Below, in pieces: positions 3,202 through 28,884 of a stretch of 32,332 nucleotides of DNA. How positions within the stretch are numbered: position 1 is the stretch's first letter; each line of letters begins with the position of its first letter. The notes under the pieces are model-generated. The model was not told the DNA's origin and ran no database searches. It saw only the letters and a program-made list of their open reading frames with translations. The stretch covers positions 1 through 32,332 of the forward strand of contig JAISZM010000069.1 of the NCBI GenBank assembly GCA_031269205.1. Direction: 5' to 3'. The position numbers and the translations under genes are program-made. This DNA comes from Eubacteriales Family XIII. Incertae Sedis bacterium (GTDB lineage: Bacteria > Bacillota > Clostridia > Peptostreptococcales > Anaerovoracaceae).

Positions 3202-3263
3202 TTGCTGTTCAGGAAATTTGTCTTATGGCGATAGAGCGGCATAGTAAAAGAGAGGAGACCACC

Positions 3264-3908
3264 ATGACTGACAAAGACATACTGTTCAAGCAAGCGGCGG
3301 ACGCTATCATCGAATCGGACGAGGACGCGGCGCTCGCCATCCTCCGGGAGGCCGAGGCCGACGGCGCGGATCTGATAGACCTGCTTTCGAACGGCTTCAG
3401 TGCCGGAATGCGCGAGGTCGGAGACAGATTCGGGATGGGAGAGCTGTTCCTGCCGGAACTCATCTTCGCGAGCGAAGTCATGAAGGCGGTCACGAACGAG
3501 ATAGAGTCGAAGATGGAGGACGGCGCCATACAGAAGAAGGGAGTCATGGTACTCGGCACGGTCGCGGGCGACGTCCACGACATAGGCAAGGGCATCGTCG
3601 CTTCGTTGCTCAAGACGAGCGGCGTTGAGGTCTACGACATCGGCCGCGAGGTTCCCGCCGAGGAATTCATCAAGAAGGCGAAGGAACTGAACGCGGACTT
3701 CATCGGCAGTAGCGCCCTTTTGACGACAACGATGACGGAGCAGGAGACCATCGAAAAACTCGTGGTCAAGGAAGGGATGAAGGACAAGGTCAAGACGCTC
3801 GTCGGCGGCGCGCCTGTCACCCAGCGCTGGGCCGACAAGATAGGAGCGGACGCCTACTGCGAGGACGCCGCGGTCACGGTCAGGTACATCAACAGCCTGT
3901 TCGAGTAG
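3264..3908 (+). CDS. B12-binding corrinoid protein of a methyltransferase system (MtbC/MttC/MtmC-like)
   Basis: N-terminal cap domain followed by the cobalamin-binding motif 'GDVHDIGKGIVASLLKTSGVEVYDIGREVP' and 'GSSALLTTTM', 'VGGAPVTQRWADKIGADAYCEDA'. Start chosen at 3264 (RBS gaggag) rather than ORF start 3225. Ends in TAG. Confidence 0.93.
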   Translation: MTDKDILFKQAADAIIESDEDAALAILREAEADGADLIDLLSNGFSAGMREVGDRFGMGELFLPELIFASEVMKAVTNEIESKMEDGAIQKKGVMVLGTVAGDVHDIGKGIVASLLKTSGVEVYDIGREVPAEEFIKKAKELNADFIGSSALLTTTMTEQETIEKLVVKEGMKDKVKTLVGGAPVTQRWADKIGADAYCEDAAVTVRYINSLFE

Positions 3909-3935: not shown

Positions 3936-4688
3936 ATGATGAACGCATCTGCAACGGACGAAACGCGGGCTTCGGAATATTTTTCGATTCCCGAGAATGA
4001 AGTGTTCCCTTTGGCCGAGCGGTTCTTTTTGAGAGCCGCCGGCTTTGATTTGGGTACGGAAAAGCATAGCCGTATGTATGCGGACGCTCTCGCCGTGAGG
4101 GACGAAGGCATTCAGGGTGTCCGCGTGGAAGGCTTTGTCGCGGAGTACGGCGCGGAAGTCTACGATGGTGAAGCGGTCGCGGTCGGCGTCGAGCGCGTGT
4201 CCGCGGTCGTGTTCGAGAGGATCCCGCCGGAATCCGTGGAGCGCGTCGTCCTCTATGTGATAACGGCCGGTGAATGCTCCTGCGACAAGGACGACGACAT
4301 CATGTCGCGACTCTACGCCCATATGTGGGGGACGGCCTACGTCGACGCGGGTCGCGTGATCCTCGAGGGCAGGATCAGGGAGCGCGTTCTCGCGGAACTC
4401 AAGGCGGAAGGCGTGCCCGGGTCACGCCTCAGCCCCGCTTTCAGCCCCGGTTTCTACGGCATGGACAACAGAGACAGTCGCGCCATCGTGAATCTGCTCG
4501 GCGCGGACGAGATAGGCGTCAGCTGCGTGGAGACGGGCGTGATGCTGCCCGTCAAGACCTGCTCGGGCGTCTTCCTCGTAACCTACGGCAGCGTGGATTT
4601 GCCGGGTGAGGAGTGCCTTGTCTGCTCGGGCAATCGGTCGGGCTGCGCTCACTGCATGGTCGCGAACCGATCGATCCTGAACGTCTGA
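3936..4688 (+). CDS. Vitamin B12-dependent methionine synthase activation-domain-like protein (putative corrinoid protein reactivation factor)
   Basis: 'LSPAFSPGFYGMDNRDSRAIVNLLGADEIGVSCVETGVMLPVKTCSGVFLVTYG' resembles the MetH activation fold; Cys-rich C-terminus 'CLVCSGNRSGCAHCMV'; directly follows the corrinoid protein. Confidence 0.7.
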   Translation: MMNASATDETRASEYFSIPENEVFPLAERFFLRAAGFDLGTEKHSRMYADALAVRDEGIQGVRVEGFVAEYGAEVYDGEAVAVGVERVSAVVFERIPPESVERVVLYVITAGECSCDKDDDIMSRLYAHMWGTAYVDAGRVILEGRIRERVLAELKAEGVPGSRLSPAFSPGFYGMDNRDSRAIVNLLGADEIGVSCVETGVMLPVKTCSGVFLVTYGSVDLPGEECLVCSGNRSGCAHCMVANRSILNV

Positions 4689-4744: not shown

Positions 4745-5788
4745 ATGGAGTTGTCGGAACTGATAAGAGAGGGATCGTTCTCGCCGTCTCCCGCGGCGGT
4801 GGAGGTTTTGCTCGGATCCGATGCGGAGGCGCGGGAGGCGCTGTTCGCGCGCGCGCGCCGCGCGCGTGCGGAGACGACGGGCGACAAAATTTTTCTCTAC
4901 GGTTTCGTCTACTTCTCCACTTGGTGCCGCAACGACTGCAACTTCTGTTATTATCGCAGGGACAACGATATAGCCCGCTACCGCAAAGGGCCTGATGAGG
5001 TGGTGGACGCCGCGGAGCGCCTCGTCGCGTCGGGGGTCAACCTCGTCGACCTGACGATGGGCGAGGATCCCGAATATCTGCGCGAGGGTCACCGCACGGC
5101 GACGGCCATCATCCGTGAGATAAAGGAACGCACTGGCTCGCCCGTCATGGTATCGTCCGGCGTCGTTCCGGCGCGAACGATACGGGAGTTCGCGGAGGCG
5201 GGAGCGGAATTCTTCGCCCTGTACCAGGAGACTCACAACCGGGAGCTGTTCGCGCGGCTGCGCGCGGGGCAGGATTACAACGGGCGTATGGAGAGTAAAC
5301 TCGCCGCGAAGGCGGCGGGTATGTTCATCGAGGAAGGGGTGCTGACGGGCGTCGGCGAAACGCCCTCCGACCTCTGCGATTCGCTGATTGAAATGGGGCG
5401 CGTCGGCGCGGCGCAGATGCGCGCGATGAGTTTCGTGCCACAGTCGGGCAGCCCGATGGAAGGGCGCGCGGAAAGTGACCGCGTCACGGAACTCGTCTTC
5501 ATCGCCCTGATGCGCGTACTCTATCCTCACGCGCTGATTCCCGCGTCCCTGGACGTCGATGGACTCTCAGGACTCGCCCCGCGCATCATGGCCGGCGCGA
5601 ATGTCGTGACGTCAATAGTCCCTCCGCGCCTGGGGCTGCGCGGTGTCGCGCAGGCTGACCTTGACATTGACGAAGGCGCTCGCACGGTCGCGGGCGTTTC
5701 CGAGGCGCTGAAAACTCTCGGCCTGCGACCTGCGACGACGGCGGAGTACCGGGAGCGGCTCGCCGAAATTTCCCGATTGATCCCGTGA
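4745..5788 (+). CDS. pylB: Methylornithine synthase PylB (radical SAM)
   Basis: Radical SAM 'CRNDCNFCYYRRDN' (CX3CX2C), 'LVDLTMGEDPEYL', 'LIPASLDVDGLSGLAPRIMAGANVVTSIVPP'; sits next to the other pyl genes. Start at 4745 after TGGAG RBS. Confidence 0.95.
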   Translation: MELSELIREGSFSPSPAAVEVLLGSDAEAREALFARARRARAETTGDKIFLYGFVYFSTWCRNDCNFCYYRRDNDIARYRKGPDEVVDAAERLVASGVNLVDLTMGEDPEYLREGHRTATAIIREIKERTGSPVMVSSGVVPARTIREFAEAGAEFFALYQETHNRELFARLRAGQDYNGRMESKLAAKAAGMFIEEGVLTGVGETPSDLCDSLIEMGRVGAAQMRAMSFVPQSGSPMEGRAESDRVTELVFIALMRVLYPHALIPASLDVDGLSGLAPRIMAGANVVTSIVPPRLGLRGVAQADLDIDEGARTVAGVSEALKTLGLRPATTAEYRERLAEISRLIP

Positions 5789-7086
5789 AGAAGGTCGTCG
5801 TCATAGGAGGGAAACTTCAGGGTACGGAAGCGTGCTACCTCGCGCGCAAGGCGGGATACGTGAGCGCTCTCATAGACAAGCGCGCGAACGCGCCCGCGTC
5901 GGGGGTGGCCGACGAGACCCTGGTCTGCGATGTGTGTTGCGATCCCTCCGATGAGGGCGGCGCGTTGGCGACACTGCTGCGTTCGGCCGACCTCGTCCTG
6001 CCCGCGCTCGAGGATGCGGACGCGCTCAAAGCGATAGCGCGTCTGGCGAAACGCTACGATCTGCCGCTTGCCTTCGACGCGGACGCTTACAAAGTCACGT
6101 CGTCAAAATCTCTCTCCGACGCGCTCATTCATCGGCTCGGCGTACCGTCGCCCGGCCGCGCGGGGAACGGCGCGGGGAACGGCGCCAGCATACAGGGCGG
6201 GGTGGATTCCCCCCGCGCGGATCGGGGCGAAGCGGAGATGAACAGCGACGGGTGGATCGTGAAACCGTCGCGCGGCAGCGGGAGCGCGGGCGTGAGGCGG
6301 TTCGCGACGCTCGGCGAGGCGCGCGTCTACGCCGCGAGCCGTGCGGACGGCGACGCCAACAGAGCAGGCATGGCGAGCCGTGCGGATGGTGACGCCGGCA
6401 GCGTAAGCATGACGGGCCATGCGGACGCGGAGGATTTCATCATACAGAGGTATCTCGAAGGCCCGTCGTATTCGGTGGAAGTCGTCGGCCGCCCCGGCAA
6501 TTACCGCAGTTACGAGGTAACGGAAATACACGTGGACGACGTATGGGACTGCAAGCTCGTGACGGCGCCGTGCGCCCTTGACCCCGCTGTCGAGGCGAGC
6601 TTTCGTGACGCGTCGGTACGCCTCGCCGAGAGCCTGGGACTCCGCGGGATCATGGACGCGGAGGCCATACTGCACGACGGCGAGATGAAGATGCTCGAGA
6701 TAGACGCGCGCATTCCGAGTCAGACGCCGGCCGTCGTGCTCGCCTCGACGGGCGTCAATCTGCTGACGGAACTCATGGAACTCACGGAAGGGAATTTCGG
6801 CGACGGCGGCCGGCGTCTGACTCGCGAGCGCCGTTTCGTCGCGTACGAGAACATCATTGCCACACGGGACGGCGTCTTTTCAAGGGGAGAGCACATCATG
6901 GGGAAGGCTGGACCGTTGACCCTGCGTGAAGGTTTCTTCGGCGCGGATGAGTCTTTGACCGACTACCGCGAAGGCTGCGCGGACTTCCGCGGCATCTTCA
7001 TCAACTCGGCCGACACGGAAAAAACGCTCGCGGAAAAGCGCGCGAAGCTCTACGAAAACATCCGTGGACTCATGGTCGGCGGATGA
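5785..7086 (+). CDS. pylC: 3-methylornithine-L-lysine ligase PylC (ATP-grasp)
   Basis: N-terminal 'VVVIGGKLQGTEACYLARKAGY', ATP-grasp 'EAILHDGEMKMLEIDARIPSQTPAVV'; GTG start overlaps the pylB stop (GTGA). Confidence 0.95.
   Translation: MKKVVVIGGKLQGTEACYLARKAGYVSALIDKRANAPASGVADETLVCDVCCDPSDEGGALATLLRSADLVLPALEDADALKAIARLAKRYDLPLAFDADAYKVTSSKSLSDALIHRLGVPSPGRAGNGAGNGASIQGGVDSPRADRGEAEMNSDGWIVKPSRGSGSAGVRRFATLGEARVYAASRADGDANRAGMASRADGDAGSVSMTGHADAEDFIIQRYLEGPSYSVEVVGRPGNYRSYEVTEIHVDDVWDCKLVTAPCALDPAVEASFRDASVRLAESLGLRGIMDAEAILHDGEMKMLEIDARIPSQTPAVVLASTGVNLLTELMELTEGNFGDGGRRLTRERRFVAYENIIATRDGVFSRGEHIMGKAGPLTLREGFFGADESLTDYREGCADFRGIFINSADTEKTLAEKRAKLYENIRGLMVGG
6159..6182 (+). repeat. 12-bp tandem duplication inside pylC
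   Basis: CGCGGGGAACGG x2, perfect. Confidence 0.9.
6334..6435 (+). repeat. 39-bp period degenerate repeat inside pylC
   Basis: GCGAGCCGTGCGGACGGCGACGCC (6334) and GCGAGCCGTGCGGATGGTGACGCC (6373), degenerate third copy from 6412; encodes ASRADGDANRAGM/ASRADGDAGSVSM/TGHADAED. Confidence 0.85.
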
Positions 7087-7111
7087 AGCCGCGCGGGGAA
7101 GAGGCAAAGGC

Positions 7112-8065
7112 ATGTGCGTAGAGTTTTTAGAGGTTCCCATGTATAATAGTGGTATGAACACAGCGTTCACGACGACACAAAGGGAGAGGCTTCTCGAACT
7201 CGGCGCCGACGACGCGGCGGTTGACGCCGTCTTCGCCGGCGTCGGGGATCGCGACGCGGCGTTTCGCGCAGCGGAAAAGAGGCTCGTCGCGGAAAACCGC
7301 GGGAAGATCGCGGCTCTGCTGCGCGAGAAGCATATGCCCGAGACCGCGCTCGTGATACGCGATCTGGAGACGTGGCTCACCGATGTTGAGGGCTTTACAA
7401 AGGTGACGACGCCGACCATCATATCGACGGAATCGCTCGACCGCATGACGCTGACGGAGGACGAACCTCTGCGGGATCAGATTTTCTACGTGGGGAAAAA
7501 CCGTTGCCTGCGCCCGATGCTCGCGCCGAACCTGTACATCGTGATGCGGGAGCTCGGGCGGATCACGAAGAGCTCCGTGCGTATCTTCGAGACGGGCTCC
7601 TGCTTCCGCAGGGAGTCGCGCGGCGCGCGCCACCTCAGCGAGTTTACGATGCTGAACTGCGTCGAGTACGGCGTGGCGTACGATCCGGATGGCGCGGACG
7701 CTGAAAGAACGCGCGTTGATGACAGCGCGGACGGACGGACGCGATCCGATGGCGCGGGTCAGATGGATCGGCTCGAGGCGCTCGCGCACGCGGCGATGCG
7801 AGCCGTCGGCATAGAGGACTTTACTCTGGAACGTGAACCCTCCGTCGTCTACGGTGAGACCATCGATATCGTCGCGGACGGCGTTGAACTCGCTTCGGGT
7901 TCCTACGGACCCTGCGCCCTCGACGCGAATTGGGGAGTGTTCGCGCCGTGGGTCGGGATAGGTTTTGGCGTTGAGCGTACAGCGATGGTCAGAGGCGGCC
8001 ACAAGACCGTTTCGAGGGTGGGTGGAAGCCTGGCCTTCGTCGACGGCGTACCGCTGAATATATGA
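7112..8065 (+). CDS. pylSc: Pyrrolysyl-tRNA synthetase catalytic (C-terminal) domain, PylSc
   Basis: Class II aaRS motifs 'LRPMLAPNLYIVMRELGR', 'RIFETGSCFRRESRGARHLSEFTMLNCVEYG', 'SVVYGETIDIVADGVELASGSYGP', 'PWVGIGFGVERTAMVRGG'. Start uncertain (7112 or 7154). Confidence 0.95.
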   Translation: MCVEFLEVPMYNSGMNTAFTTTQRERLLELGADDAAVDAVFAGVGDRDAAFRAAEKRLVAENRGKIAALLREKHMPETALVIRDLETWLTDVEGFTKVTTPTIISTESLDRMTLTEDEPLRDQIFYVGKNRCLRPMLAPNLYIVMRELGRITKSSVRIFETGSCFRRESRGARHLSEFTMLNCVEYGVAYDPDGADAERTRVDDSADGRTRSDGAGQMDRLEALAHAAMRAVGIEDFTLEREPSVVYGETIDIVADGVELASGSYGPCALDANWGVFAPWVGIGFGVERTAMVRGGHKTVSRVGGSLAFVDGVPLNI

Positions 8066-8118
8066 GGCGCCCACAAGGCGTTCTGTTGCTTGCTGATGGG
8101 TTTTAGAGAACGGTAATA

Positions 8119-8991
8119 ATGACGAGAGTTGTGACGGAATGGCTCGATACGAGCCGTGAAGATATGGAGAGATACGGAGCGTCCGTGGAGGCTCTGACGG
8201 GGTTTGCGCCCGCGCGGCTCGCCGCCCGCGCGGCGGCGCGGCTTGCGGGAGCGGGGTGCGCCTCCGGCGCGGAGGGATCGTTCGCTTCGCTCTCGAGCCG
8301 CCGCGCCGCCTTTGAGGACTCTGCCCCCGACGTATCCGCGGTAAGGGCGGGCGTCGTGCGCGTGACGTCGGGACTCGGCGTGATCGGCGGATTTGCGGAT
8401 TCCCTGACCGCGCTGCTTTCGTGGCTCGGAGCGGACGCGTTTGCTCCGAAGGAGACGGATGTGGACGGATTCTACGCCGCGGCGAAATCGGGAGCCGACG
8501 TCGTTTTCCTCGCGGACGACGACAGGTTCGTCTGCGTGAACCTCGCGAGCGGCGTCATAGCGGAGAACGACGAGGCGACGTCCTACGGTTACGCGGTGGC
8601 GCTGGATCTGATGGCGGGCGGACTTCGCGGCAGGGATGTTCTGCTCATCGGCTACGGGCGCGTGGGGAGATTGGCGCTGCGCGCGTTGAAAGGCTTCGGC
8701 GCGTCAGTCTTTGTCTTCGACAAGGATCTGGACGCGCGCGTGGCCGCCGCCTTCGACTCCGATGGCATCTCCGAACGCGGGGATATAAAGGACTTCAGCC
8801 TCATCTTCGACGCCACGGATGAGGGCGGCTGGCTCTGGCCGGAGGAACTTCGCGACGGCGTCCTTATCGCGGCGCCCGGCCTGCCTCCGTCCCTGCATGA
8901 ACAGGCGTCCGGGCGCTTCGACGGCAGGATTTTCAGCGATGCCCTGCAGACGGGCGCGGCGGTGATGCTGTATCGCGCGCTTCTGCCGTAG
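8119..8991 (+). CDS. pylD: Pyrrolysine synthase PylD (Rossmann-fold dehydrogenase)
   Basis: 'VTSGLGVIGGFADSLTALLSWLGADAF', 'DVLLIGYGRVGRLALRALKGFGASVFVFDKD'; in the pyl cluster; ends in TAG. Confidence 0.93.
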   Translation: MTRVVTEWLDTSREDMERYGASVEALTGFAPARLAARAAARLAGAGCASGAEGSFASLSSRRAAFEDSAPDVSAVRAGVVRVTSGLGVIGGFADSLTALLSWLGADAFAPKETDVDGFYAAAKSGADVVFLADDDRFVCVNLASGVIAENDEATSYGYAVALDLMAGGLRGRDVLLIGYGRVGRLALRALKGFGASVFVFDKDLDARVAAAFDSDGISERGDIKDFSLIFDATDEGGWLWPEELRDGVLIAAPGLPPSLHEQASGRFDGRIFSDALQTGAAVMLYRALLP

Positions 8992-9014
8992 CGACGGTGC
9001 GGGCGGAATTATCT

Positions 9015-9086
9015 GGGGAGCGGATCGGAAGGATCACATGGACTCTAAATCCATGCAGCCGGGTGTAACTCCCGGGCTTCCCGCCA
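9015..9086 (+). tRNA. pylT: tRNA-Pyl, anticodon CTA (9045-9047), genomically encoded CCA
   Basis: Acceptor GGGGAGC/GCTTCCC (9015-9021/9076-9082), D stem GATC/GATC with 5-nt loop, 6-bp anticodon stem CATGGA/TCCATG (9037-9042/9050-9055), loop CTCTAAA, 3-nt variable region CAG, T arm CCGGG-TGTAACT-CCCGG, discriminator G (9083), CCA 9084-9086. Confidence 0.97.
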
Positions 9087-9093
9087 AGGAAAC

Positions 9094-9146
9094 GGCGCCG
9101 CGCGGACGCGCGGCGCCCCGGAAACGGGGAAAGGCGGTGGAACCGC
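9094..9146 (+). other. Three consecutive RNA hairpins between pylT and pylSn
   Basis: GGCGCCGCGC-GGAC-GCGCGGCGCC (9094-9117); CCCCG-GAAA-CGGGG (9116-9129); GCGGT-GGA-ACCGC (9134-9146), ending 1 nt before the pylSn ATG (9148). Confidence 0.75.
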
Positions 9147-9147
9147 G

Positions 9148-9507
9148 ATGGCGGACAAGGTATATTATCGAAAAAACGTGGAGCTGTACCTCCTGCTTGA
9201 CAAGATCAGACTCTGGCCGTCAAAAAGCGGCGCGTTGCACGGCGTCAAGGAGGTCAAAGCGGAGGGAAAGTTTATCGAGGTCACGACGCACTGCGGCAAG
9301 CGTTTTCGCGTCTACAATTCGCGCACGTCGCGCGCGGCGCGGTGGCTGAGGAACAAGTGGGTGGCCAAGCCCTGCCCCGACTGTAAGGTGCCTGAGTGGA
9401 AGCTCGAAAAGTACAGCAAGACTTTCTTTGAGTCTTACGGCAGCGATCTGCGCGTGCAGTCGTCCGTACGGGGCGGCGAGCGGGAGGATGCGGTTCGCGA
9501 TGTGTGA
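9148..9507 (+). CDS. pylSn: Pyrrolysyl-tRNA synthetase N-terminal tRNA-binding protein, PylSn
   Basis: 'KVYYRKNVELYLLLDKIRLWPSKSGALHGVKEVKAEGKFIEVTTHCGKRFRVYNSRTSRAARWLRNKWVAKPCPDCKVPEWKLEKYSK' is highly characteristic of bacterial PylSn. Confidence 0.96.
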   Translation: MADKVYYRKNVELYLLLDKIRLWPSKSGALHGVKEVKAEGKFIEVTTHCGKRFRVYNSRTSRAARWLRNKWVAKPCPDCKVPEWKLEKYSKTFFESYGSDLRVQSSVRGGEREDAVRDV

Positions 9508-9538: not shown

Positions 9539-10945
9539 ATGAGCAAAGACAAAAGATATTTTACTAGGAGAGGCGACGGCAGCATCGTCTACCTGACGGA
9601 GCGGGAGATAAGGGACGACATCGTCGATGGCGTGGCGGACGCCGTGAAACGCGGTAAGATACCTCCGCTGACGCAGGATGAGATGGATCACATCTTCGGG
9701 ATCGTGACCATGCCCGGCGGCGTGGTCGGCGTCGCGCCCGAGGACACGGTCGTTTCGACGAGCGACTCGGGTTCCTCCAAGTTTACCACCAAATGCGGCA
9801 TCCCGATCGAACGCGTCGCCGGCGCCATGATACACGAGCGCGTACTCGGCGCGGACAGCGTCGACATCGGCGGCGACGACTACAACTACAAGACGGCCAA
9901 GGGTATTGCGAAGCGAGAGGCGAGCGTGCTGAAAAGAGCTTTGGACGTGACGACCATGCCGTTGTTCTACGGCGCCATGCCCGATCTCGGATTTTACACG
10001 AAGCCCGATGGCCCCGTCGACAACTGGGCCGAACTCCTGCCGCTCGGCAAGGTCGACGAAGCGCTGGCCGCGCAGGAGGAGGCCGTCGGGCATTCCGTCC
10101 ACGACATAGTCTACGTAGCGCAGCAGGTCGACGCGGTCGGCGCCGACGGCATTCACATAGACACGGCCGGGGCGGCGGGCGACGGCGATTTTCTCGCCGC
10201 GTTGGAAGCCACGGAGATCATCAAGGAAAAATTTCCGAACCTCGCCGTATCCATAGGTATGTCCGGCGAGTTCGTCCTCGGTATGCACGGGCGGCTGAAG
10301 TACAAGGACAAGCGCCTCGCTGGCCTGTACGCCCACGACCAGGTGAAGCTCGCGGAGGAGGCCGGCGCGTCCGTCTTCGGACCCGTGGTGAACACGAACA
10401 GCGACAAGTCTTTCCCTTGGAACATCTCACGCGTCTGCACGTTCATGAAGGCGTGCAGCGAGGTCGCGAATATCCCGATACACGCGAACGCGGGCATGGG
10501 CGTCTGCGGCGTCCCGATGGCGGAGAACATGACGGCGGATGTGGTATCGCGTGTCGACAAATGCCTCATCGAGATATGCAAGATAGACGGGTTGTAGATA
10601 GGCGTCGGAGACCCCCTCGCCATGGAGGCTACGCACGCGATAGCCGCGGGAATGGGAGGGATACGCACGGCCGGAGATCTGGTCATGCGCGTCCAGCTCG
10701 CGAAAAAACTGCGGATAGCCGAAGCGAAGAAGTACGTGGCAGAAAAATTGGACGTGACGATAGATGAACTCTGCGACGTCATATCCATGACAGAAGTCAG
10801 AGAGAAACGCGGATTTGGGATACCTCATTTCGAACCCGACGCGAACGTCAATATCGGCATGGAAGCGAAGTTCCGCATAGCTGAGGCGCTTGGACTCAGA
10901 ATCAATTCCGTGGAACGCTTTAAGAGATTGGCGGGCATAAAATGA
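9539..10945 (+). CDS. mtbB: Dimethylamine:corrinoid methyltransferase MtbB, with in-frame UAG (pyrrolysine) at codon 353 (10595-10597)
   Basis: Two track ORFs (9428-10597 and 10622-10945) share a frame across TAG: '...KCLIEICKIDGL-O-IGVGDPLAMEATHAIAAGMGGIRTAGDLVMRVQ...', matching MtbB around its Pyl residue. 468 aa total; GGAGGT RBS before ATG 9539; ends with TGA. Confidence 0.95.
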
Positions 10946-10973: not shown

Positions 10974-12467
10974 TTATGCGCCCGCCTTCCGGTTTGCCGC
11001 GAAAGCCTTCTTCTCCCGCAACTCGCCCTCGGCGTCCTCGATGATGGAGCGTATCGCCTTCGCCGTGCTCTCGGGCAGCGGCGTCGGCTTGTGGTTTTCG
11101 AGCACTTTCAGCGCCTCCTCGTGCGCGCGAGCGTTCACGTCCCTCGAGCCGTGCGTAACCCAGTTTTCGTACATATCGCGGTCGAACAACGTTGACGTCG
11201 ACGTCTCCCGGCGCAGATGCTTCAGCGTGTGTCGTTGGTTCAGGAAGGTTCCGGCGGGTCCTACCGCCTCGATCACCTCCACGGCGAGCGTGTCGTCGTC
11301 GAACCTGATGCCGTCCATGATCCGCCGCGTCATCTTGACGATCTCCGAGTCTATGATCAGCTGGTCGTAACTCATCACCATTCCCAGTTCGGTCATGCCC
11401 ATTCCGTAGATGACGCTGGACCCTGCCAACGCCGGTAGCAATGCGCTCAAGGTTTTCTCATGGCCGATCTGTGCGTCGATCAGCTTGCTGTCCCCCTATG
11501 TCCCGCCTACGTAGGTGGGTATGCCGTAGTATTTCCCGATGGCCGCGACCGCGGCGCCGATCATCGCGTGTTCGGGCGCTCCGACGGGCGACGTCATGCG
11601 CTTCATGTCCATGATGGTCGTGGAACTCCCGTAGAATACGGGCGCCCCCTTATGCGCGAGTTGCGAGAGGACGACGCCGGCGAGCACCTCGCAGTTGCAG
11701 GTGAGTATCGTGCCCGCGAGCGTGACGGGCGTCGTGCCGCCGCACAGCCCCATCGAGAGGATGTTGCACGGTAGCCCGTGCCGCGCCGCCTCGATGATCT
11801 GCTCGCCGCCGTCGCTCGTTATCTCCAGAGGACTCGTCGGGCAGCACCCGCCCGAGATGATGGGCCGCTCCCTGAGCTTGTCGTACCCGCCCGCGACCTC
11901 GGCCGCCATTTTGAAGACGAGCCGCGTCTTCTCCCGGCCGTCCGCGTCGTGCGCGAAATGCTTCGTCGTGTTCGAGAAGAGCGCCTCGGCCTCGTAGAGT
12001 TCCTTTATCTCCGCGGGCGCGTCCGTCGCGATGACGGGCAGCGTCAGCCGATCGACGTAGGGAAGTCCGTCAAGGAAGCGCACGACGGAGCGCAGGTCTT
12101 CGAGCGTCGTAGCCCGCCGCTCCCCCGTGTACGGGTCGTCGATCTCCACGCCCGCGCTGAAGTTCGTGAATATGACGTTCCGGCCGCCCGCTACCACCTC
12201 GTAGTCCGGATCCCTGCCGTACATGCTGAACACCGTCGGCGCCGACTCGATGGCGTCCTCAACGACGGCCGCGGGGAATTTTATCATGTCCGTCTCCGCG
12301 TCCACCGCGCAGCCCGCCTCGCGGTACAGTTCCTGGGCTTCGTCGCCCGCGACGCGAACACCGAACTCGCCCATGATTTTCAGCGTCGCCTCGTGCATGG
12401 CGACGACATCGTCGCGCGTCACGTTCATATACCCGAACGTAAGGTCATCGATAGCATCTCTCAACAA
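10974..12467 (-). CDS. mttB: Trimethylamine:corrinoid methyltransferase MttB, with in-frame UAG (pyrrolysine) at 11498-11496
   Basis: Minus-strand ORFs 11496-12512 and 10974-11450 share a frame: '...[48 protein letters not shown]...', the MttB Pyl context. Probable TTG start at 12467 preceded by GGAGGT; TAA stop. Confidence 0.94.
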
Positions 12468-12667
12468 GGCGCACCTCCATCGCTCTCTTCCACTGTAATA
12501 ACGGTAGAACAACCCTCGCCCCGATAACCGTCACAACGGCATCAGGCGTCAGGTCACCCCCCGCGTATGCCGCAAGTAGATTATACACCAAAATCATATG
12601 GTTATTGCCGCGCTTATCAAAACGTCCGTCCGCTCATCTTTGCTGGCGTTACACTCCATCGGCGCGG

Positions 12668-12696: not shown

Positions 12697-14169
12697 ATGG
12701 AGGCAAGCATGAAACGGTATTCTTTTGATACGCAGCCCAAAATAAGATATCTCAGCGACGATGAGATCGTGCGCGTTCACGAGGGTGCGCTTCGGATACT
12801 CGAGGGAACGGGCGTCCTCTTCGAGGGCGCTGAGGCGCTGTCGATCCTTGCGGACGCCGGCTGTGATGTCGACCGCGACACGCGCATAGTTCGCATACCC
12901 GCGGACCGCGCGGAGGACGCCATACGGAAAATTCCCGGATCTTTCGAGCTGTGGAACAGACCGGGCACGGAGAGCCTGACCGTCGGGGGTGAGAACTATT
13001 ACTTTGACCCGGGGTCGTCGGGGCTGAATTTCCTCGAGAGCGACGGGAAGACCGTGCGCCCCGCCGTGACGGACGACATGGTGCGCCTGTACCGGCTTGC
13101 CGACGCGCTGCCGCATCTGAAGCTGCAGTCCACGGCGCTCTCGGTGTCGGACGTGCCGGAGGATATTGTGGATTGTTATCGCGTGTGGCTGCTGCTGAAG
13201 AACACCACGAAGCCCTTCGTGTCCGGCGCGTATGAGGCGATCGGGGCGCGGCGCATAACGGATATTCTGTCCGCCGTCAGGGGGAGCGAGGAGGCGCTGA
13301 GGGAGAAGCCTCTCGCGGTGATGGACATCTGCTCGCAGCCTCCGCTCAAATGGGGTGAGACGAGCTGCAGCAATATTATCGACTTCGCGCGCTTTGGGAT
13401 TCCCATTGAGACGATATCCGTGCCCATGCCGGGAACGGCGTCGCCCGCGACGCTTGCGGGTTCGCTCGTAATACACCTGGCGGAATCGATCAGCGGGATG
13501 GCGCTCGCGCAGGCGGCTGGCCCGGGTACGCCGATGGTCATGGGGGGCGCGCCGATGACCTTCGATATGAGGTACAGCACGACGTCCCTGAACGCGGTCG
13601 AGACGAGCATCATCAGTACGGCCTACGCGCAGATCGCGCGGTACTACGGGATTCCATCGCACAACTACGCCTGCCTCGCGGATCCGAAGGTCGTCGACGC
13701 GCAGGCCGGACTCGAGTCCGGCGTCAGCGCGGTCATGGCGACGCTCGGCGGGGTCAACATCATCTCCGGCCCCGGTATGATAGACTTCGTGAACACGTTC
13801 AGTCTCGAAAAACTCGTGATCGACCACGAGATAATCGCTATGGCGGATCGCCTGTACCGCGGCATGGAGGTGAACGATGAGACGCTGGCGCTGGACCTGA
13901 TCGAAGAGATGGGTTCGTCGGGCGACTATCTGAAGACGAAGCATACGCGGAAGTTCTACCGCTCGGAGACCTATGTTCCGTCGGTCGTGATAGACAAGAT
14001 GAACCGCGCCAGATGGACGTCCGAAGGCGAGACCGACGTGTTCGAACGCGCGCGCGCCTTCGTGGATAAAACGCTTGAGAGCCACGTCCCCGAGCCGCTT
14101 CCCCCGGATACGGAGGCTGCGCTCGACGCGATCATGGCCGATATCAGAGCTTCATCGGAAAACGGCTGA
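12697..14169 (+). CDS. MttB-superfamily methyltransferase without pyrrolysine (glycine-betaine/quaternary-amine-methyltransferase-like)
   Basis: 490 aa collinear with MttB ('YLSDDEIVRVHEGALRILEGTGVLFEG', 'LLLKNTTKPFVSGAY', 'TPATLAGS'-like 'SPATLAGSLV'). Pyl site region reads 'YACLADPKVVDAQAGLESG' with no UAG. Confidence 0.9.
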   Translation: MEASMKRYSFDTQPKIRYLSDDEIVRVHEGALRILEGTGVLFEGAEALSILADAGCDVDRDTRIVRIPADRAEDAIRKIPGSFELWNRPGTESLTVGGENYYFDPGSSGLNFLESDGKTVRPAVTDDMVRLYRLADALPHLKLQSTALSVSDVPEDIVDCYRVWLLLKNTTKPFVSGAYEAIGARRITDILSAVRGSEEALREKPLAVMDICSQPPLKWGETSCSNIIDFARFGIPIETISVPMPGTASPATLAGSLVIHLAESISGMALAQAAGPGTPMVMGGAPMTFDMRYSTTSLNAVETSIISTAYAQIARYYGIPSHNYACLADPKVVDAQAGLESGVSAVMATLGGVNIISGPGMIDFVNTFSLEKLVIDHEIIAMADRLYRGMEVNDETLALDLIEEMGSSGDYLKTKHTRKFYRSETYVPSVVIDKMNRARWTSEGETDVFERARAFVDKTLESHVPEPLPPDTEAALDAIMADIRASSENG

Positions 14170-20680: not shown

Positions 20681-20788
20681 TTATAATCAAGCGTATGGTC
20701 ATTGTTCTTTCCGGCGAAGTCCTTTTTAGTGAGCGGGGTCTTCGGTCGGCTGACAAAAAATAATGTTCAATCTAGTGAGGAGAGTGAG

Positions 20789-21994
20789 TTGAGCGAACAA
20801 AAAACATCGAAGGAGCTTTTGAATGAGCTTCTGGAGACGCATTACGACAATGCGATGAAGGTCCAGAGCGAAGGCAAACTTTTGGCGTGGTGTACTTCTA
20901 TCTCGCCGCAGGAATTGCTTGAGACGATGGATATCTATGCGGTCTATCCGGAAAATCACGCCGCCGCGATCGGAGCGCGCAAGCAGGCGCCGGACTTTAT
21001 CAACTATTCGGAGAGCAACGGTTATTCCTCCGACCTGTGTTCGTATGCGCGGGTCAACCTCGCCTATATGGATATCCTGCAAAGCGAGGCCGGCAATATA
21101 CCGCGGCCCGATCTGATCTTTTGTTGCAGCAATATCTGCAACACGGTCTTGAAATGGTACGAGAACATTTCGAAAGAGCTGAATATCCCGTTGATCGTCT
21201 TCGATACGCCGTTCAATCACCAGTACGAGGTGAATGACCAGTGTACTCAATATATCAAGGGTCAGCTCCTTGAAGCGATCGGGAAGCTCGAGCAGATTAC
21301 TGGCAGGAAGTTCGATCACGATCGCTTCCGGGAGGTCATGAAGATCTCATCGGAAACGTCCAAGTGGTGGAAAAAGGCTTCGCTGGAAGCGGCGGCAAAG
21401 CCATCCCCGTTGAACGGGTTTGAACTGTTCAACTACATGGCGGCGATCGTCTGCGCGCGCGGAACCGTCGCGGGTCGGGATCTCTACAAACTCTGGTATG
21501 AAGAACTTCGGGACAAGGCCGCGAAGGGTCTCGGTCCCTGGAAGGACGAAGATGAGAAATACCGCGTCATGTGGGACGGCATCGCCTGCTGGCCCTATCT
21601 CGGTCTCACGTACAAAACGCTGAAGAAATACGGAATCAATATGGTCACGTCCACCTATCCGGACTCATGGTATATCGTCTATGATGTGGACGACCTCGAT
21701 GGAATGGCTCGTTGCTACAGTTCGAATTACGTCAACAGGAATCTTTCTTTCGGCGCGGACAACATCGTGGATATCGTGAACAAATTCTCTCTGGACGGTA
21801 TCGTCTTCCACTCCAACAGAAGCTGCAAGCTCATGGATTTTCGGCAATTTGAGATACAGCGTCAGGTTGAAGCCCGCACGGGCGTCCCGTCGATCATCTT
21901 CGACGGCGACCAAACCGATCCGAGAGCGTTCAATCCGTCTCAGTTTGAGAACAGGATTCAGGCCCTTGTTGAGATGATGGAATCAAGAAGGTAA
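20789..21994 (+). CDS. 2-hydroxyacyl-CoA dehydratase subunit (HgdA/FldB-like)
   Basis: 'LLAWCTSISPQELLETMDIYAVYPENHAAAIGAR', 'LIFCCSNICNTVLKWYENISKELNIPLIVFDTPF', 'HSNRSCKLMDFRQFEIQRQVEARTGVPSIIFDGDQTDPR'. TTG start proposed at 20789 after gaggagagtgag. Confidence 0.92.
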   Translation: MSEQKTSKELLNELLETHYDNAMKVQSEGKLLAWCTSISPQELLETMDIYAVYPENHAAAIGARKQAPDFINYSESNGYSSDLCSYARVNLAYMDILQSEAGNIPRPDLIFCCSNICNTVLKWYENISKELNIPLIVFDTPFNHQYEVNDQCTQYIKGQLLEAIGKLEQITGRKFDHDRFREVMKISSETSKWWKKASLEAAAKPSPLNGFELFNYMAAIVCARGTVAGRDLYKLWYEELRDKAAKGLGPWKDEDEKYRVMWDGIACWPYLGLTYKTLKKYGINMVTSTYPDSWYIVYDVDDLDGMARCYSSNYVNRNLSFGADNIVDIVNKFSLDGIVFHSNRSCKLMDFRQFEIQRQVEARTGVPSIIFDGDQTDPRAFNPSQFENRIQALVEMMESRR

Positions 21995-22009
21995 AGGGGG
22001 CGTAACACG

Positions 22010-23143
22010 ATGAATGGAATCAATGACAAGATAAATGAACTGAAAGCAATCTCACAGAATCCCGGACAATCGGTAGCTCAGGCGATCAAGGACACGGGCA
22101 AAAAGGCGGTTGGCTGTTTCCCGATATATACGCCGGACGAGGTCGTGTACGCCCTCGGTCTCCTGCCTGTCGGCATGTGGGGCGGTCCTTCGAAGGGAAA
22201 CAAGTCCAGCAAATACCTCCAGACATTCTGCTGTTCGATCATGAAGGCTAATACGGAGCAGGCTCTTGGCGGAGACTATGATATGCTCAGCGCGGTGATA
22301 GTCACGTCGTTTTGTGACACGCTGAAATGTATCATCGAAGATTGGAAAATCGCCGTTCCCCATCTGAACATCGTCCCCATCGTCTATCCGCAAAACCGCA
22401 AATCAAACTCTGGCAAGACATATTTCAAAGCGGAGTTGAAGAGGGTCGCCGACGAACTCGCGGAGATTACGGACACGTCGTACACGGACGAAAGCCTCGC
22501 CGCCGCCGTCGACCTCTATGACGAATACCGCCGAACGCTTCAGGATTTCGTGAAAAGTGTCGCCGAAAAGCCGGGTCTCATCACTCCGCTTGAACGGCAT
22601 CACGTCGTCAAGGCCGGTTATTTTATCGACAAAAAAGATTATGTACCCAAGGTGAAAGCCCTCACCGAGGACATTAGAGCGGCGGAAGTTCCCTCAGACA
22701 GACAAGGTCTCAACCCGATCGTGATATCCGGAATCATCGGGGAACCCGACGGTTTGCTCGAGGTCTTTGACGAGTGCGGATTCACCGTCGTCGGCGACGA
22801 TCTTGCGCAGGAATCGCGCCAGTTCAGGACGATCGCGCCGAATGTCGGCGATGGATTTGATCGTATGGTCGAGCGCATAGCAATGCAGGATGGTTGCGCG
22901 TTCCTGTATGACGAAGAGAAAAGGCGAGGCCGGATGATCGTTGATCTGGCCAAAGAGACCGGAGCGGTCGGCGTCATTTTCAATCAGCTCAAGTTTTGCG
23001 ATCCGGAGGAATTCGATTGGCCCCTCGTCAAGAAGGAGTTCAACGCGGCGGAATTGCCGTACCTCTACATAGAGACCGAGCAGCAGATGGATTCGCTTGA
23101 ACAGGTGAGAACCAGCATTCAAACCTTTGGAGAGTTGCTCTGA
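22010..23143 (+). CDS. 2-hydroxyacyl-CoA dehydratase subunit (HgdB/FldC-like)
   Basis: 'KKAVGCFPIYTPDEVVYALGLLPVGMWGG', 'FCCSIMKANTEQ', 'SFCDTLKCIIEDWK', 'DEEKRRGRMIVDLAKETGAVGVIFNQLKFCDPEEFD', typical second subunit. Confidence 0.92.
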   Translation: MNGINDKINELKAISQNPGQSVAQAIKDTGKKAVGCFPIYTPDEVVYALGLLPVGMWGGPSKGNKSSKYLQTFCCSIMKANTEQALGGDYDMLSAVIVTSFCDTLKCIIEDWKIAVPHLNIVPIVYPQNRKSNSGKTYFKAELKRVADELAEITDTSYTDESLAAAVDLYDEYRRTLQDFVKSVAEKPGLITPLERHHVVKAGYFIDKKDYVPKVKALTEDIRAAEVPSDRQGLNPIVISGIIGEPDGLLEVFDECGFTVVGDDLAQESRQFRTIAPNVGDGFDRMVERIAMQDGCAFLYDEEKRRGRMIVDLAKETGAVGVIFNQLKFCDPEEFDWPLVKKEFNAAELPYLYIETEQQMDSLEQVRTSIQTFGELL

Positions 23144-23919
23144 TGCCCGAACGCGCCTATATGGGAATCGACATAGGCTCGTCCTCGTCGAAGGCGGTGA
23201 TTATCGACAGGGACGCCGCTATCAGAGGTGAACACATCATCAATCTCGGTACGGGTAGCCGTGGACCCGCCGATGCGATTGCGAAGGCCTTTGAACAGGC
23301 CGGTATTACGAAGGTCGACAGGACTGTCGCGACAGGGTACGGGCGCATTCTCTTCAAGGAGGCAGACAAGCAGATCACGGAGATCAGCTGTCACGCGCGC
23401 GGCGTCAAACAACTTGTTCCGACGGCGGAAACCGTCGTCGACATAGGAGGGCAGGACGCGAAAGTCATCCGGGTCAAGCCGGATGGCAGAGTTGAAAATT
23501 TCGTCATGAACGACAAGTGCGCAGCCGGCACCGGCAGGTTTCTCGAGGTGATGTCGCGGGTTCTAGGTGTGGGGATCGACCAGCTCTCGGAACTCGCCGA
23601 CAAAGGCAAGCCGGGCGTCAATATCAGCAGCACCTGTACGGTGTTCGCGGAGTCGGAGGTGATCTCGCAGTTGTCCTCCGGCAGCAGCATAGAGGATGTA
23701 GCGCTCGGCGCGCATCGGTCTATCGCCGAGAGGATCGTGGGCCTTGCCGGGCGCGTCGGCATTGAGGACGATGTCGTCATGACCGGAGGCGTAGCGTTGA
23801 ACGATAGTGTCGTGCAGGCGGTGGAGGATGTTTCCGGCCACAAGATAACACGACTCAAGGATCCTCAGGGTATGGGCGCCTTCGGGGCGGCTCTCTACGC
23901 AAGGGATCTGGACAATTAG
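23143..23919 (+). CDS. 2-hydroxyacyl-CoA dehydratase activator ATPase (HgdC/BadF-like)
   Basis: 'MGIDIGSSSSKAVIIDRD', 'NDKCAAGTGRFLEVM', 'STCTVFAESEVISQLSSG', 'VMTGGVALNDSVV'; start overlaps the upstream stop (TGATG); ends TAG TGA. Confidence 0.95.
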   Translation: MPERAYMGIDIGSSSSKAVIIDRDAAIRGEHIINLGTGSRGPADAIAKAFEQAGITKVDRTVATGYGRILFKEADKQITEISCHARGVKQLVPTAETVVDIGGQDAKVIRVKPDGRVENFVMNDKCAAGTGRFLEVMSRVLGVGIDQLSELADKGKPGVNISSTCTVFAESEVISQLSSGSSIEDVALGAHRSIAERIVGLAGRVGIEDDVVMTGGVALNDSVVQAVEDVSGHKITRLKDPQGMGAFGAALYARDLDN

Positions 23920-23967
23920 TGATTTGCCATAGAGTTTACAGGAAGAATAAAAAGGAGGTACTAAACT

Positions 23968-24825
23968 ATGGACATCAAGAAGGTAGCTATGGTAGGCGGT
24001 GGTACAATGGGCAATCAAATTGCCATACAGGTCGCGATCTCGGGCTATGAGACACGCCTTTACTCGCGCAGTCAGAGTACCGTCGATAAGGCGAAGTCTT
24101 TCGCGGACGGTTGGTTTGCGAAGCAGGTCTCAAAGGAGAAATTGACGCAGGCGGACGCCGATGCGCATAAAGCGCGTCTCAGTTTCACGACGGATCTCGC
24201 CGACGCGGTCAAAGATGTGGATCTCGTGATCGAAGCTGTTGTGGATGTGCTCGATACAAAACGGAAAGTTCTCGCGCAGATTGACGCATTGACACCCGAT
24301 ACTACTATCTTTGCAAGCAACAGCTCATACATCGTCGCCTCACGGTTTGCGGATGCCGTGAAAGACCCGAGCAAGGTGATGAATCTGCATTTCTTCAATC
24401 CCGCCCTCATCATGAAGCTCGTCGAAGTCGTCCGGGGTCCGCACGTTTCCGACGACACGATCGACACGATGATCGAGTTCGTCAAGTCGATAGGCAAGAT
24501 ACCGGCCGTCGTCAACAAGGAGATATACGGGTTCATCGTGAACCGGGTATTCAGCGCCATCACAAAGGAAGCCTGCTATATGTACGATCAGGGCGTCGCG
24601 TCCTATGAGGATATCGACAACGCCGTGAAGTACGGGCTTTCCCACCCGATGGGGCCGTTTGAGCTGCTTGACCTGACCGGCATAGATCTCGAGTACGACG
24701 TGTTGACCGAGAAGTACAAGACGACGGGTGACCTGGCCGACAAGCCGAGCGTAACCCTCGTCGAACACCACGCGAGGGGCGAGTACGGAAGAAAGACGAA
24801 GAAGGGCTTCTACAGTTACGAATAG
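23968..24825 (+). CDS. 3-hydroxyacyl-CoA (3-hydroxybutyryl-CoA) dehydrogenase
   Basis: 'KKVAMVGGGTMGNQIAIQVAISGYETRLYSRS', 'LHFFNPALIMKLVEVVRG', 'GFIVNRVFSAITKEA', 'GLSHPMGPFELLDLTGID'. Confidence 0.93.
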   Translation: MDIKKVAMVGGGTMGNQIAIQVAISGYETRLYSRSQSTVDKAKSFADGWFAKQVSKEKLTQADADAHKARLSFTTDLADAVKDVDLVIEAVVDVLDTKRKVLAQIDALTPDTTIFASNSSYIVASRFADAVKDPSKVMNLHFFNPALIMKLVEVVRGPHVSDDTIDTMIEFVKSIGKIPAVVNKEIYGFIVNRVFSAITKEACYMYDQGVASYEDIDNAVKYGLSHPMGPFELLDLTGIDLEYDVLTEKYKTTGDLADKPSVTLVEHHARGEYGRKTKKGFYSYE

Positions 24826-24863
24826 GGGCAGTTAGCGCTAGTTTCAAAGGAGGAAAAGTTATC

Positions 24864-26048
24864 ATGAGTGAAAAAAATGTAGTGATTTGCGCGGGTGTAA
24901 GGACTCCGATCGGTACGATTGGCGGACAGTTCAAGACGATAACGTCGTTGGATCTGTCGATCCCCGTGCTTCAGGAACTGGTAAAGCGTTCGGGCATCGA
25001 TCCGGAGAAGATCGCGGACGTGATCTGGGGATGTAATTATCAGAGAACTTATAAGGAGAACAACCTCGCCAGAGTGGCGCTTGTGAAGGCAGGTCTGCCC
25101 ACCTCAGTGCCGGGCATCACGATACACCGGAATTGTACCTCGTCGATGTCGTCCATGCAGATCGGTTTTTATCAGATCAAAGCGGGCGAGGCCGACGCTA
25201 TTATCGCGGGCGGCGCGGACAGCATGAGCACGGCGCCTCATATGAATTTTGACTTCCGCTACGGAAAGAAGTTCGGCCACAGCGATCTGCGTGATTCCAT
25301 GTGGGATTCGCTGACGAATCTAGGTATCGGCCCCGCGATGGGCATTACCGCCGAGAACGTAGCCGAGAGATTCGGCGTCACGCGCGAGGAGCAGGATGAG
25401 TACGCCCTTCTGAGCCAGCAGCGCGCGGTGGCCGCGCAGGACGCGGGCAAATTCAAAGATGAGATCACTCCTGTTACGGTACCCGGGCGGAAGGGCGACA
25501 CGACGTTCGATACGGACGAGTATCCCAAGCGCGACGCCACGATCGAAAGTCTGCAAAGACTGAAGGCGACGTTCAAGGACGGCGGTACGGTAACGCCCGG
25601 CAACGCGTCTGGCATGAATGACGCGGCTTCAGGAGTCCTCCTCGTCGAGGAGTCGAAGGCGAAGGAATGGGGTCTTCCCATCCTCGCTCGAGTGCTTGCG
25701 ACCGCGACGACGGGCGTCGATCCGGAGATCATGGGCATAGGTCCGGTCAGTTCATCCAACGTCGCGCTTGAAAAAGCGGGTCTCACATTGGACGACATCG
25801 AACTCGCCGAAATCAACGAGGCTTTTGCCGCGCAGTATCTGGCGGTGGAGAAAGAACTCGGCCTGAAGCGTGAGATCACAAATGTGAATGGCGGCGGCAT
25901 CTCACTCGGACATCCCGTCGGAGCCACCGGATCCAGAATAGTGATTACGTTGATCTATGAAATGAAGCGCCGCGGTCTTCGCTACGGTCTTGCCGGGCTG
26001 TGCGCTGGTGGCGGTATGGGTGTTTCAATCGTTGTGGAGGTCCTGTGA
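24864..26048 (+). CDS. Acetyl-CoA acetyltransferase/thiolase
   Basis: Nucleophile region 'HRNCTSSMSS', 'NVNGGGISLGHPVGATGSRI', C-terminal 'LAGLCAGGGMGVSIVVE'. Confidence 0.94.
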   Translation: MSEKNVVICAGVRTPIGTIGGQFKTITSLDLSIPVLQELVKRSGIDPEKIADVIWGCNYQRTYKENNLARVALVKAGLPTSVPGITIHRNCTSSMSSMQIGFYQIKAGEADAIIAGGADSMSTAPHMNFDFRYGKKFGHSDLRDSMWDSLTNLGIGPAMGITAENVAERFGVTREEQDEYALLSQQRAVAAQDAGKFKDEITPVTVPGRKGDTTFDTDEYPKRDATIESLQRLKATFKDGGTVTPGNASGMNDAASGVLLVEESKAKEWGLPILARVLATATTGVDPEIMGIGPVSSSNVALEKAGLTLDDIELAEINEAFAAQYLAVEKELGLKREITNVNGGGISLGHPVGATGSRIVITLIYEMKRRGLRYGLAGLCAGGGMGVSIVVEVL

Positions 26049-26083
26049 CGCGATAGCGCGGGCATGGAAGGAGAGATAATTCA

Positions 26084-27466
26084 ATGAGCAAAATTTTCGT
26101 ACCCAGATTCTGCACCTTGAGCGAAGTTCAGAGCGAATACAAGAACAAGCTGAAGACTGCGGACGATGCGGTTCAAATCGTCAAGACCGGAGATCGCGTC
26201 CACTACGGGCTGTTCTGCGGGATTATTCAGGATCTCGACAAGGCGCTCGCGAAGCGTGTCGATGAGTTGGAGGACGTTACGGTATACGATTCCATCTGGG
26301 CCTACAGCGAACCTCCGGCCATCGTTCAGGCGGATCCGGAGTCGAAGCATTTCAAGTATATCAGCACCCATATGAGCGGCCTGGATCGTTCGATGAACAA
26401 GCAAGGGGCTTGCTGGTTCTTCCCCGTGCAGTTCCGCGAGAACACGAAGCTCTGGGCGGAGAACGTGGAGAAGATAGATGTCGCGATGATGCAGGTCGGC
26501 CCGATGGACAAGAACGGGTATTTCAATATCGGCCCGCAGGTCGCGGAGGCTTGGGGCGTCATGGGGCGGGCGGACAAGATCATCGTCGAGGTGAACGAAA
26601 AACAGCCCCAGACGCACGGCATCCAGACGACGCTGCATATCTCTCAGATCGATATCATCACGGAGAGTTCGAACAACGAATTGCCGCAGCTCATCGCCAA
26701 AGACGCCACCGAAACGGAAAAGAAGATAGCCGCGCACATCGTGGAACGCATCGAGAGCGGTACGGCGCTGCAGCTCGGGATTGGCGGTATGCCGAACTAT
26801 GTCGGAAGCATGATCAAGGATTCCGACATCAACGACCTGAGTGTGCACACCGAGATGTTCGTGGACGCCTACGTCGAATTGTTCAAGGCCGGCAAGATCA
26901 CCGGCAACAAGAATACGCACAAAGGCAAGATGGTATTCACCTTCGCGATGGGTTCAAAACAGGTATACGACTTCATCGACGATAACCCCATCATCTGCTG
27001 TGGCCCCGTGGACTACGTGAACGCGCTCGAGGTCATCGCGGCGAACGACAAGGTCGTTTCGATCAACAGTTGTCTGCAGGTGGATCTCTTCGGGCAGGTC
27101 AACTCGGAATCGGCGGGCATCCAGCATATCGGCGGTACGGGCGGACAGCTTGATTACGTCATGGGCGCCTTCAAATCCCGTGGCGGCAAGAGCTTTCTCT
27201 GTACGCCGTCGGTTCGCAAGAACAAAGACGGCTCGCTCGTCTCACTGATAACGCCGCGTCTGCCGGAAGGTTCTATCGTATCCACCCCGAGGAGCGCCAC
27301 GCACTACGTGGTGACGGAGTTCGGTGCGGTCAACCTGAAGGGCAAGACGACCTACGAGAGAGCTGAGTTGCTCATCTCCATCGCGCATCCCGATTTCAGG
27401 GAGCAGCTTGAGGAGGAGGCGTTCAACATGGGTCTCACGCGCAAGAGCAGCAAGGTTCTGGTTTAA
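26084..27466 (+). CDS. Acetyl-CoA hydrolase/CoA-transferase family (4-hydroxybutyrate or acyl-CoA:acetate CoA-transferase type)
   Basis: 'LQLGIGGMPNYVGSMI', 'VHTEMFVDAYVELF', 'NSESAGIQHIGGTGGQLDYVMGAF', 'ITPRLPEGSIVSTPRSATHYVVTEFGAVNLKGKTTYERAELLISIAHPDFREQL'. Confidence 0.93.
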   Translation: MSKIFVPRFCTLSEVQSEYKNKLKTADDAVQIVKTGDRVHYGLFCGIIQDLDKALAKRVDELEDVTVYDSIWAYSEPPAIVQADPESKHFKYISTHMSGLDRSMNKQGACWFFPVQFRENTKLWAENVEKIDVAMMQVGPMDKNGYFNIGPQVAEAWGVMGRADKIIVEVNEKQPQTHGIQTTLHISQIDIITESSNNELPQLIAKDATETEKKIAAHIVERIESGTALQLGIGGMPNYVGSMIKDSDINDLSVHTEMFVDAYVELFKAGKITGNKNTHKGKMVFTFAMGSKQVYDFIDDNPIICCGPVDYVNALEVIAANDKVVSINSCLQVDLFGQVNSESAGIQHIGGTGGQLDYVMGAFKSRGGKSFLCTPSVRKNKDGSLVSLITPRLPEGSIVSTPRSATHYVVTEFGAVNLKGKTTYERAELLISIAHPDFREQLEEEAFNMGLTRKSSKVLV

Positions 27467-27552
27467 GGACAGTTGATAAAAATTAAGTATAGTTTGGTTA
27501 AGTATAATTTTAGTTAGTGAAAGAAGAATATTGCTTTAAGGAGGAATGAGTT

Positions 27553-28836: not shown

Positions 28837-28884
28837 GCTGACCGGACGACGTAGTATTGTCTTGGCTGAAAGATGGAGGTTGTT

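Follow-up and report, generated by a model that had tools for sequence, protein, structure and literature searches.

The window analysed here, a 32,332-nucleotide (nt) stretch from an Eubacteriales Family XIII. Incertae Sedis bacterium (assembly GCA_031269205.1, contig JAISZM010000069.1; C193 in our numbering), contains at 4745–9507 a complete set of genes for making pyrrolysine (Pyl), the rare 22nd amino acid, and for placing it at UAG codons, in the order pylB-pylC-pylSc-pylD-pylT-pylSn, all on the forward strand. Judged from sequence, this run is very probably a functional bacterial pyrrolysine cassette with a split synthetase, joined to its target genes and arranged in an order derived within one clade of the Anaerovoracaceae. 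The host, a metagenome-assembled genome of that family (1.63 Mb, 205 contigs, 78% complete), belongs to the same genus as Clostridiales Family XIII bacterium Cf509_bin47 (G004); bin names in Cf, Nt and Md we take to denote termite-gut samples. A host among the Synergistetes was considered and rejected, since the relatives belong to Family XIII/Anaerovoracaceae. The GC content of the window (57.7%) is in line with that of other contigs of the host genome.

Protein identities were set by curated NCBIfam equivalog cut-offs, each of which is exceeded by the corresponding Pyl protein, and the tRNA was identified with ARAGORN. A run of these six components is not due to chance:

4745–5788, forward: pylB, (3R)-3-methyl-D-ornithine synthase, a radical SAM protein (TIGR03910, 418.7 bits; cut-off 348.2)
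5785–7086, forward: pylC, methylornithine–lysine ligase, an ATP-grasp protein (TIGR03909, 289.1 bits; cut-off 248.3)
7154–8065, forward: pylSc, the catalytic half of pyrrolysyl-tRNA synthetase (TIGR02367, 253.8 bits; cut-off 178.15)
8119–8991, forward: pylD, pyrrolysine synthase (TIGR03911, 201.3 bits; cut-off 150.05; also PF21455, PylD_N)
9015–9086, forward: pylT, tRNA-Pyl(CUA), anticodon CTA
9148–9507, forward: pylSn, the tRNA-binding small synthetase subunit (TIGR03912, 121.5 bits; cut-off 51.15)

The original prediction had reported a complete bacterial system with both synthetase halves in one single-strand run, PylSc lying between PylC and PylD and the tRNA between pylD and pylSn; with PylSn and PylSc encoded by separate open reading frames (ORFs), this description is borne out in full. 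As evidence that would count against it, it had named hits to other radical SAM, ATP-grasp or aminoacyl-tRNA synthetase families, but these score far below the Pyl families: for PylB the best rival is HydE, with 104 bits against 419. Structures agree with the assignments. The best match of PylB in the PDB is PylB itself (3t7v, E 5e-81), with the CxxxCxxC motif present within WCRNDCNFCYY; PylC, whose start overlaps the end of pylB by 4 nt, matches PylC 4ffl as two stretches either side of an insertion; PylD matches 4j43 and 4q39; and PylSn is homologous to the N-terminal domain of PylRS (5ud5, E 1e-9), its candidate zinc ligands being the histidine of GALHG, the cysteine of THCG and those of CPDC. 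PylSc, for which an alternative in-frame GTG lies upstream at 7064, matches 2zni and 3dsq by sequence, and its AlphaFold2 model superimposes on Desulfitobacterium PylSc 2zni with a template-modelling score of 0.81.

Two of these proteins carry insertions. Those of PylC are of low complexity and lie at about residues 125–155 and 195–215. That of PylSc adds about 25 residues after motif 2 (window ∼7680–7765), so that the region measures 30–32 residues in two members of the genus, the only long forms among 32 sequences aligned, versus 6–7 in 30 relatives; the conserved motifs are intact despite it. The PylSc insertion was considered as a possible domain and rejected, being of low confidence in the model (predicted local distance difference test, pLDDT, below 50 at residues 180–197) and different in sequence between the two genus members; on the model we treat it as a disordered loop. 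Low-complexity insertions rich in Ala, Gly, Asp and Arg recur in the otherwise conserved pylC, pylSc and glgB (L215), and pylC includes a 39-nt tandem repeat at 6334–6427.

The tRNA gene is the sole tRNA-Pyl called by ARAGORN. It folds as a compact cloverleaf with anticodon stem CATGGA/TCCATG, a short D-loop and a 3-nt variable loop, encodes CCA after the discriminator G, and has near-identical counterparts in relatives. Immediately 3′ of it, before pylSn, stands a hairpin of ten pairs, all GC (9094–9117); a strong hairpin (z −2.8) occupies the same position in the genus-mate, with a sequence unrelated to this one. The window hairpin may act in processing or attenuation. That an RNA structure is conserved in this interval was considered and rejected, as relatives in other genera have too little space there or no significant fold.

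What gives the pyl system its meaning is the presence, directly downstream, of methyltransferase genes with in-frame TAG codons, which the original prediction did not mention. These, and a gene for a cognate corrinoid protein upstream of pylB, are:

9539–10945, forward: mtbB, dimethylamine:corrinoid methyltransferase, 468 residues, with an in-frame TAG at 10595–10597 (Pyl353)
10974–12512 (start possibly 12428), reverse: mttB, trimethylamine:corrinoid methyltransferase, with an in-frame TAG at 11498–11496
3225–3908, forward: mtbC/mttC-like corrinoid protein (PF02607 and PF02310), below the cut-offs of NF041607 (220 bits; 350) and TIGR02370 (210.6; 215.3)

mtbB begins 31 nt past pylSn. Each methyltransferase gene has one TAG and needs read-through for full length; read through, MtbB scores 435 bits against TIGR02368, above the cut-off, and MttB 626.7 against TIGR02369 (cut-off 525). 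Among homologs from pyl loci the TAG column is kept in 55 of 55 for mtbB and in 40 of 43 for mttB. The Rfam families PYLIS_2 and PYLIS_3 match at the TAGs of mtbB and mttB, respectively; the matches sit in conserved coding sequence and we read them as a homology signal, not as proof of a required RNA element.

The complete split-synthetase system is probably functional, and its action can be predicted from these genes. PylB, PylC and PylD would make pyrrolysine from two lysines, PylSn would bind tRNA-Pyl(CUA) and PylSc would charge it. The charged tRNA would then decode the one UAG that lies in frame in each of mtbB and mttB to yield full-length di- and trimethylamine methyltransferases, from which methyl groups would pass to the corrinoid protein encoded at 3225–3908 and on to C1 metabolism. 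The genes, the tRNA and the conserved TAGs are read from the sequence itself; expression and co-transcription of the cluster, charging of the tRNA, insertion of pyrrolysine and the nature of the substrates are what we infer in this scheme. A subunit of carbon monoxide dehydrogenase/acetyl-CoA synthase, recognized by eye, and AcsV, identified by NCBIfam, are encoded on contig C9. No mtmB was detected in the host genome, 78% complete as it is, and the predicted route therefore runs from trimethylamine through dimethylamine to monomethylamine. The host also retains release factor 1 (RF1, 518.6 bits), and TAG ends 150 of the 607 ORFs of at least 120 residues (∼25%) in the ∼776 kb scanned, about half of the 1.63 Mb; UAG in this organism is therefore ambiguous, with two meanings.

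PylSc is present in 44 of 352 genomes of the family, representing 19 of 93 genera. The order B-C-Sc-D-T-Sn occurs in at least eight of these: the genus of the window, g111, g112, g5, g56, g67, g97 and g100 (Emergencia), several of them cultured, such as Emergencia timonensis, or represented by single-contig genomes. Genus g20 has C-Sc-D-T-Sn, with pylB after pylSn in two genomes, and the remaining members of the family have Sc-D-T-B-C-Sn or Sc-Sn-D-T-B-C. Most of the Desulfosporosinus and Sporomusa loci sampled show T-Sc-B-C-D-Sn, and none of the loci sampled from outside Anaerovoracaceae has B-C-Sc-D-T-Sn. The suggestion that the order is lineage-specific thus stands at the level of the clade, but not beyond that: within the family the order is widespread. 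The arrangement is derived and belongs to one clade of Anaerovoracaceae, without being unique to the window, and pyl order varies by clade among three arrangements inside a single family.

In a concatenated tree of PylB, PylC, PylSc, PylD and PylSn the window stands beside Cf509_bin47 (support 1.0), and g111, g2 and g112 join the two in a supported clade. The group to which the window belongs is mostly of B-C-Sc-D-T-Sn order and sits within Anaerovoracaceae and relatives whose clusters read Sc-D-T-B-C-Sn or Sc-Sn-D-T-B-C. One move of pylBC converts Sc-D-T-B-C-Sn into B-C-Sc-D-T-Sn; the simplest origin is probably an ancestor of the former type in which the pylBC block left its place between pylT and pylSn and came to lie before pylSc.

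Published orders are pylTSBCD in archaea and pylTScBCDSn or pylSnScBCD in bacteria (Borrel 2014, PMC3941956). The order in the window matches neither of the bacterial ones and, as first proposed, differs from those of Methanosarcina and Desulfitobacterium. Pyl-type mttB has been found in Emergencia and in a novel Anaerovoracaceae genus in a gut survey of 2023 (PMC10653893). A literature search, short of most subscription journals, returned no description of the B-C-Sc-D-T-Sn order. What we describe is a known system with a clade-specific gene order rather than a new system; it extends the pyrrolysine-encoding bacteria by an Anaerovoracaceae genus that has been little studied, and divergent split PylRS/tRNA pairs can be drawn from such loci.

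Of named systems, E. timonensis SN18 (G343; NZ_FLKM01000008, L056), a member of the family, and other Emergencia share with the window the B-C-Sc-D-T-Sn order and the nearby presence of mttB and mtbB with in-frame TAG, mtbC and a gene like the MetH-reactivation domain. The window lacks two genes that they carry: a RACo-like activator, which separates the reactivation-like gene from pylB, and a GTPase of ∼300 codons, CobW-like by sequence, which separates pylT from pylSn and occurs at this position also in g67 and part of g56. The PylSc of Emergencia is without the long insertion. Cf509_bin47 (JAIRPQ010000135, L032) agrees in order, in its near-identical pylT and in the place of the PylSc insertion, with PylSn 83% and PylSc 68% identical. 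It differs in that a minus-strand ORF of ∼530 residues with a lipoprotein-like start splits pylC from pylSc (L032/L183), and mtbB does not directly follow pylSn. The Desulfitobacterium/Desulfosporosinus-type cluster comprises the same six components with a split synthetase, and its PylSc (2zni) matches in fold, but the Desulfosporosinus-type order is T-Sc-B-C-D-Sn; this general bacterial order is presumably that of Desulfitobacterium as well. Methanosarcina (pylTSBCD) shares the pathway and the amber suppressor tRNA, whereas its PylS is a single fused protein (PMC3941956).

Several points weigh against a functional cassette of clade-specific order. The insertions might interfere with the activity of PylC and PylSc; the absence of mtmB is weak evidence in so incomplete a genome; and support for joining the two B-C-Sc-D-T-Sn sub-clades is 0.14 (0.98 if g83, of variable orders, is included), which makes it likely, though not certain, that the order arose once. 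Were the pyl genes a decaying remnant, with biosynthesis and synthetase drifting and UAG purely a stop, the low-complexity insertions in PylC and PylSc would fit, as would the fact that pylD itself ends in TAG, like about a quarter of long ORFs. Yet all six components are intact, in frame and with conserved motifs kept, PylSn retains the similarity to its genus-mate given above, and both methyltransferases are intact either side of their TAG; decay is on this evidence very improbable. The TAG stop of pylD was considered as a means of autoregulation and rejected, as pyl genes of relatives end in a mixture of TAA, TGA and TAG with no preference.

That the arrangement joins unrelated pieces through faulty assembly or binning might be suspected in a genome so fragmented, but the same order recurs in independent assemblies, single-contig genomes and the isolate SN18 among them, and the nearest relative in the tree belongs to the same genus, which leaves artefact with a negligible probability. 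Equally little can be said for an innovation of this one species: the order is indeed unlike the bacterial orders of Borrel 2014 (PMC3941956), but its occurrence in at least eight genera of the family refutes the idea. A functional cassette of an order shared by its clade is the reading that we retain.

Decoding of UAG as pyrrolysine may extend to genes other than those of the methylamine methyltransferases. The candidates from a junction scan of the ∼776 kb were ten with TAG, ten with TGA and four with TAA. In four of the TAG cases a recognizable protein is interrupted, namely in mtbB, mttB and two further genes; the TGA and TAA candidates, judged by eye, are adjacent genes or antisense noise, none of them comparable. 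The two further genes, too few for statistics, are:

L207:304–2301 (contig C9, about 38158–40155): acsV-like corrinoid activator, in-frame TAG at residue 514 of 665
L215:1516–3687 (contig C3), reverse: glgB, glycogen branching enzyme, in-frame TAG at residue 590 of 723

Read through, AcsV aligns with NF040756 along almost its entire length at 785 bits (cut-off 800), and the RACo_C_ter domain spans residue 514, where Cf509_bin47 has ATG. Compared with that genome, the part after the TAG has a non-synonymous divergence (dN) of 0.18 and a synonymous divergence (dS) of 1.70, and the 250 columns before it have dN 0.22 and dS 0.97; the low dN relative to dS after the TAG indicates purifying selection there. 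In GlgB the C-terminal beta domain (PF02806) spans residue 590, and in genus-mates G001 and G002, in which no PylSc was detected, the glgB frame is uninterrupted. For both TAGs several origins are conceivable: pyrrolysine inserted incidentally, a recent nonsense mutation or loss, a polymorphism or an error of assembly. That the AcsV and GlgB codons specify Pyl, incidentally or for regulation, is a tentative suggestion that we think rather doubtful. If these ambers are truly read through, pyrrolysine would in this bacterium have spread to ordinary proteins, and its presence in AcsV would tie synthesis of the corrinoid activator to pyrrolysine supply. Family-wide counts of TAG within the RACo frame were uninformative, the stops counted seeming to be mostly terminal ones.

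Two further genes flank the cassette and its targets:

3936–4688, forward: stand-alone protein like the MetH reactivation domain (Foldseek 1j6r, TMt 0.75, then MetH activation domains)
12697–14169, forward: MttB-superfamily paralogue without pyrrolysine, MtgB/MtxB-like (PF06253, 290 bits)

The former has no Pfam match; its model has a pLDDT of 84, cysteine pairs lie at its C-terminus, and orthologs adjoin mtbC and pyl in Anaerovoracaceae pyl loci. On the structural model it is possibly a corrinoid reactivation helper. The paralogue reaches 419 bits with TIGR02369, below the cut-off for Pyl-type MttB, and has no internal TAG; beyond it and mttB no further MttB-family genes were found in the host genome. 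Elsewhere in the window, an operon-like run at 20702–30045 encodes two 2-hydroxyacyl-CoA dehydratase subunits, an activator ATPase, a 3-hydroxyacyl-CoA dehydrogenase, a thiolase, a CoA-transferase, an aminotransferase and an iron alcohol dehydrogenase, and probably represents a fermentation route from an amino acid to a short-chain acid.

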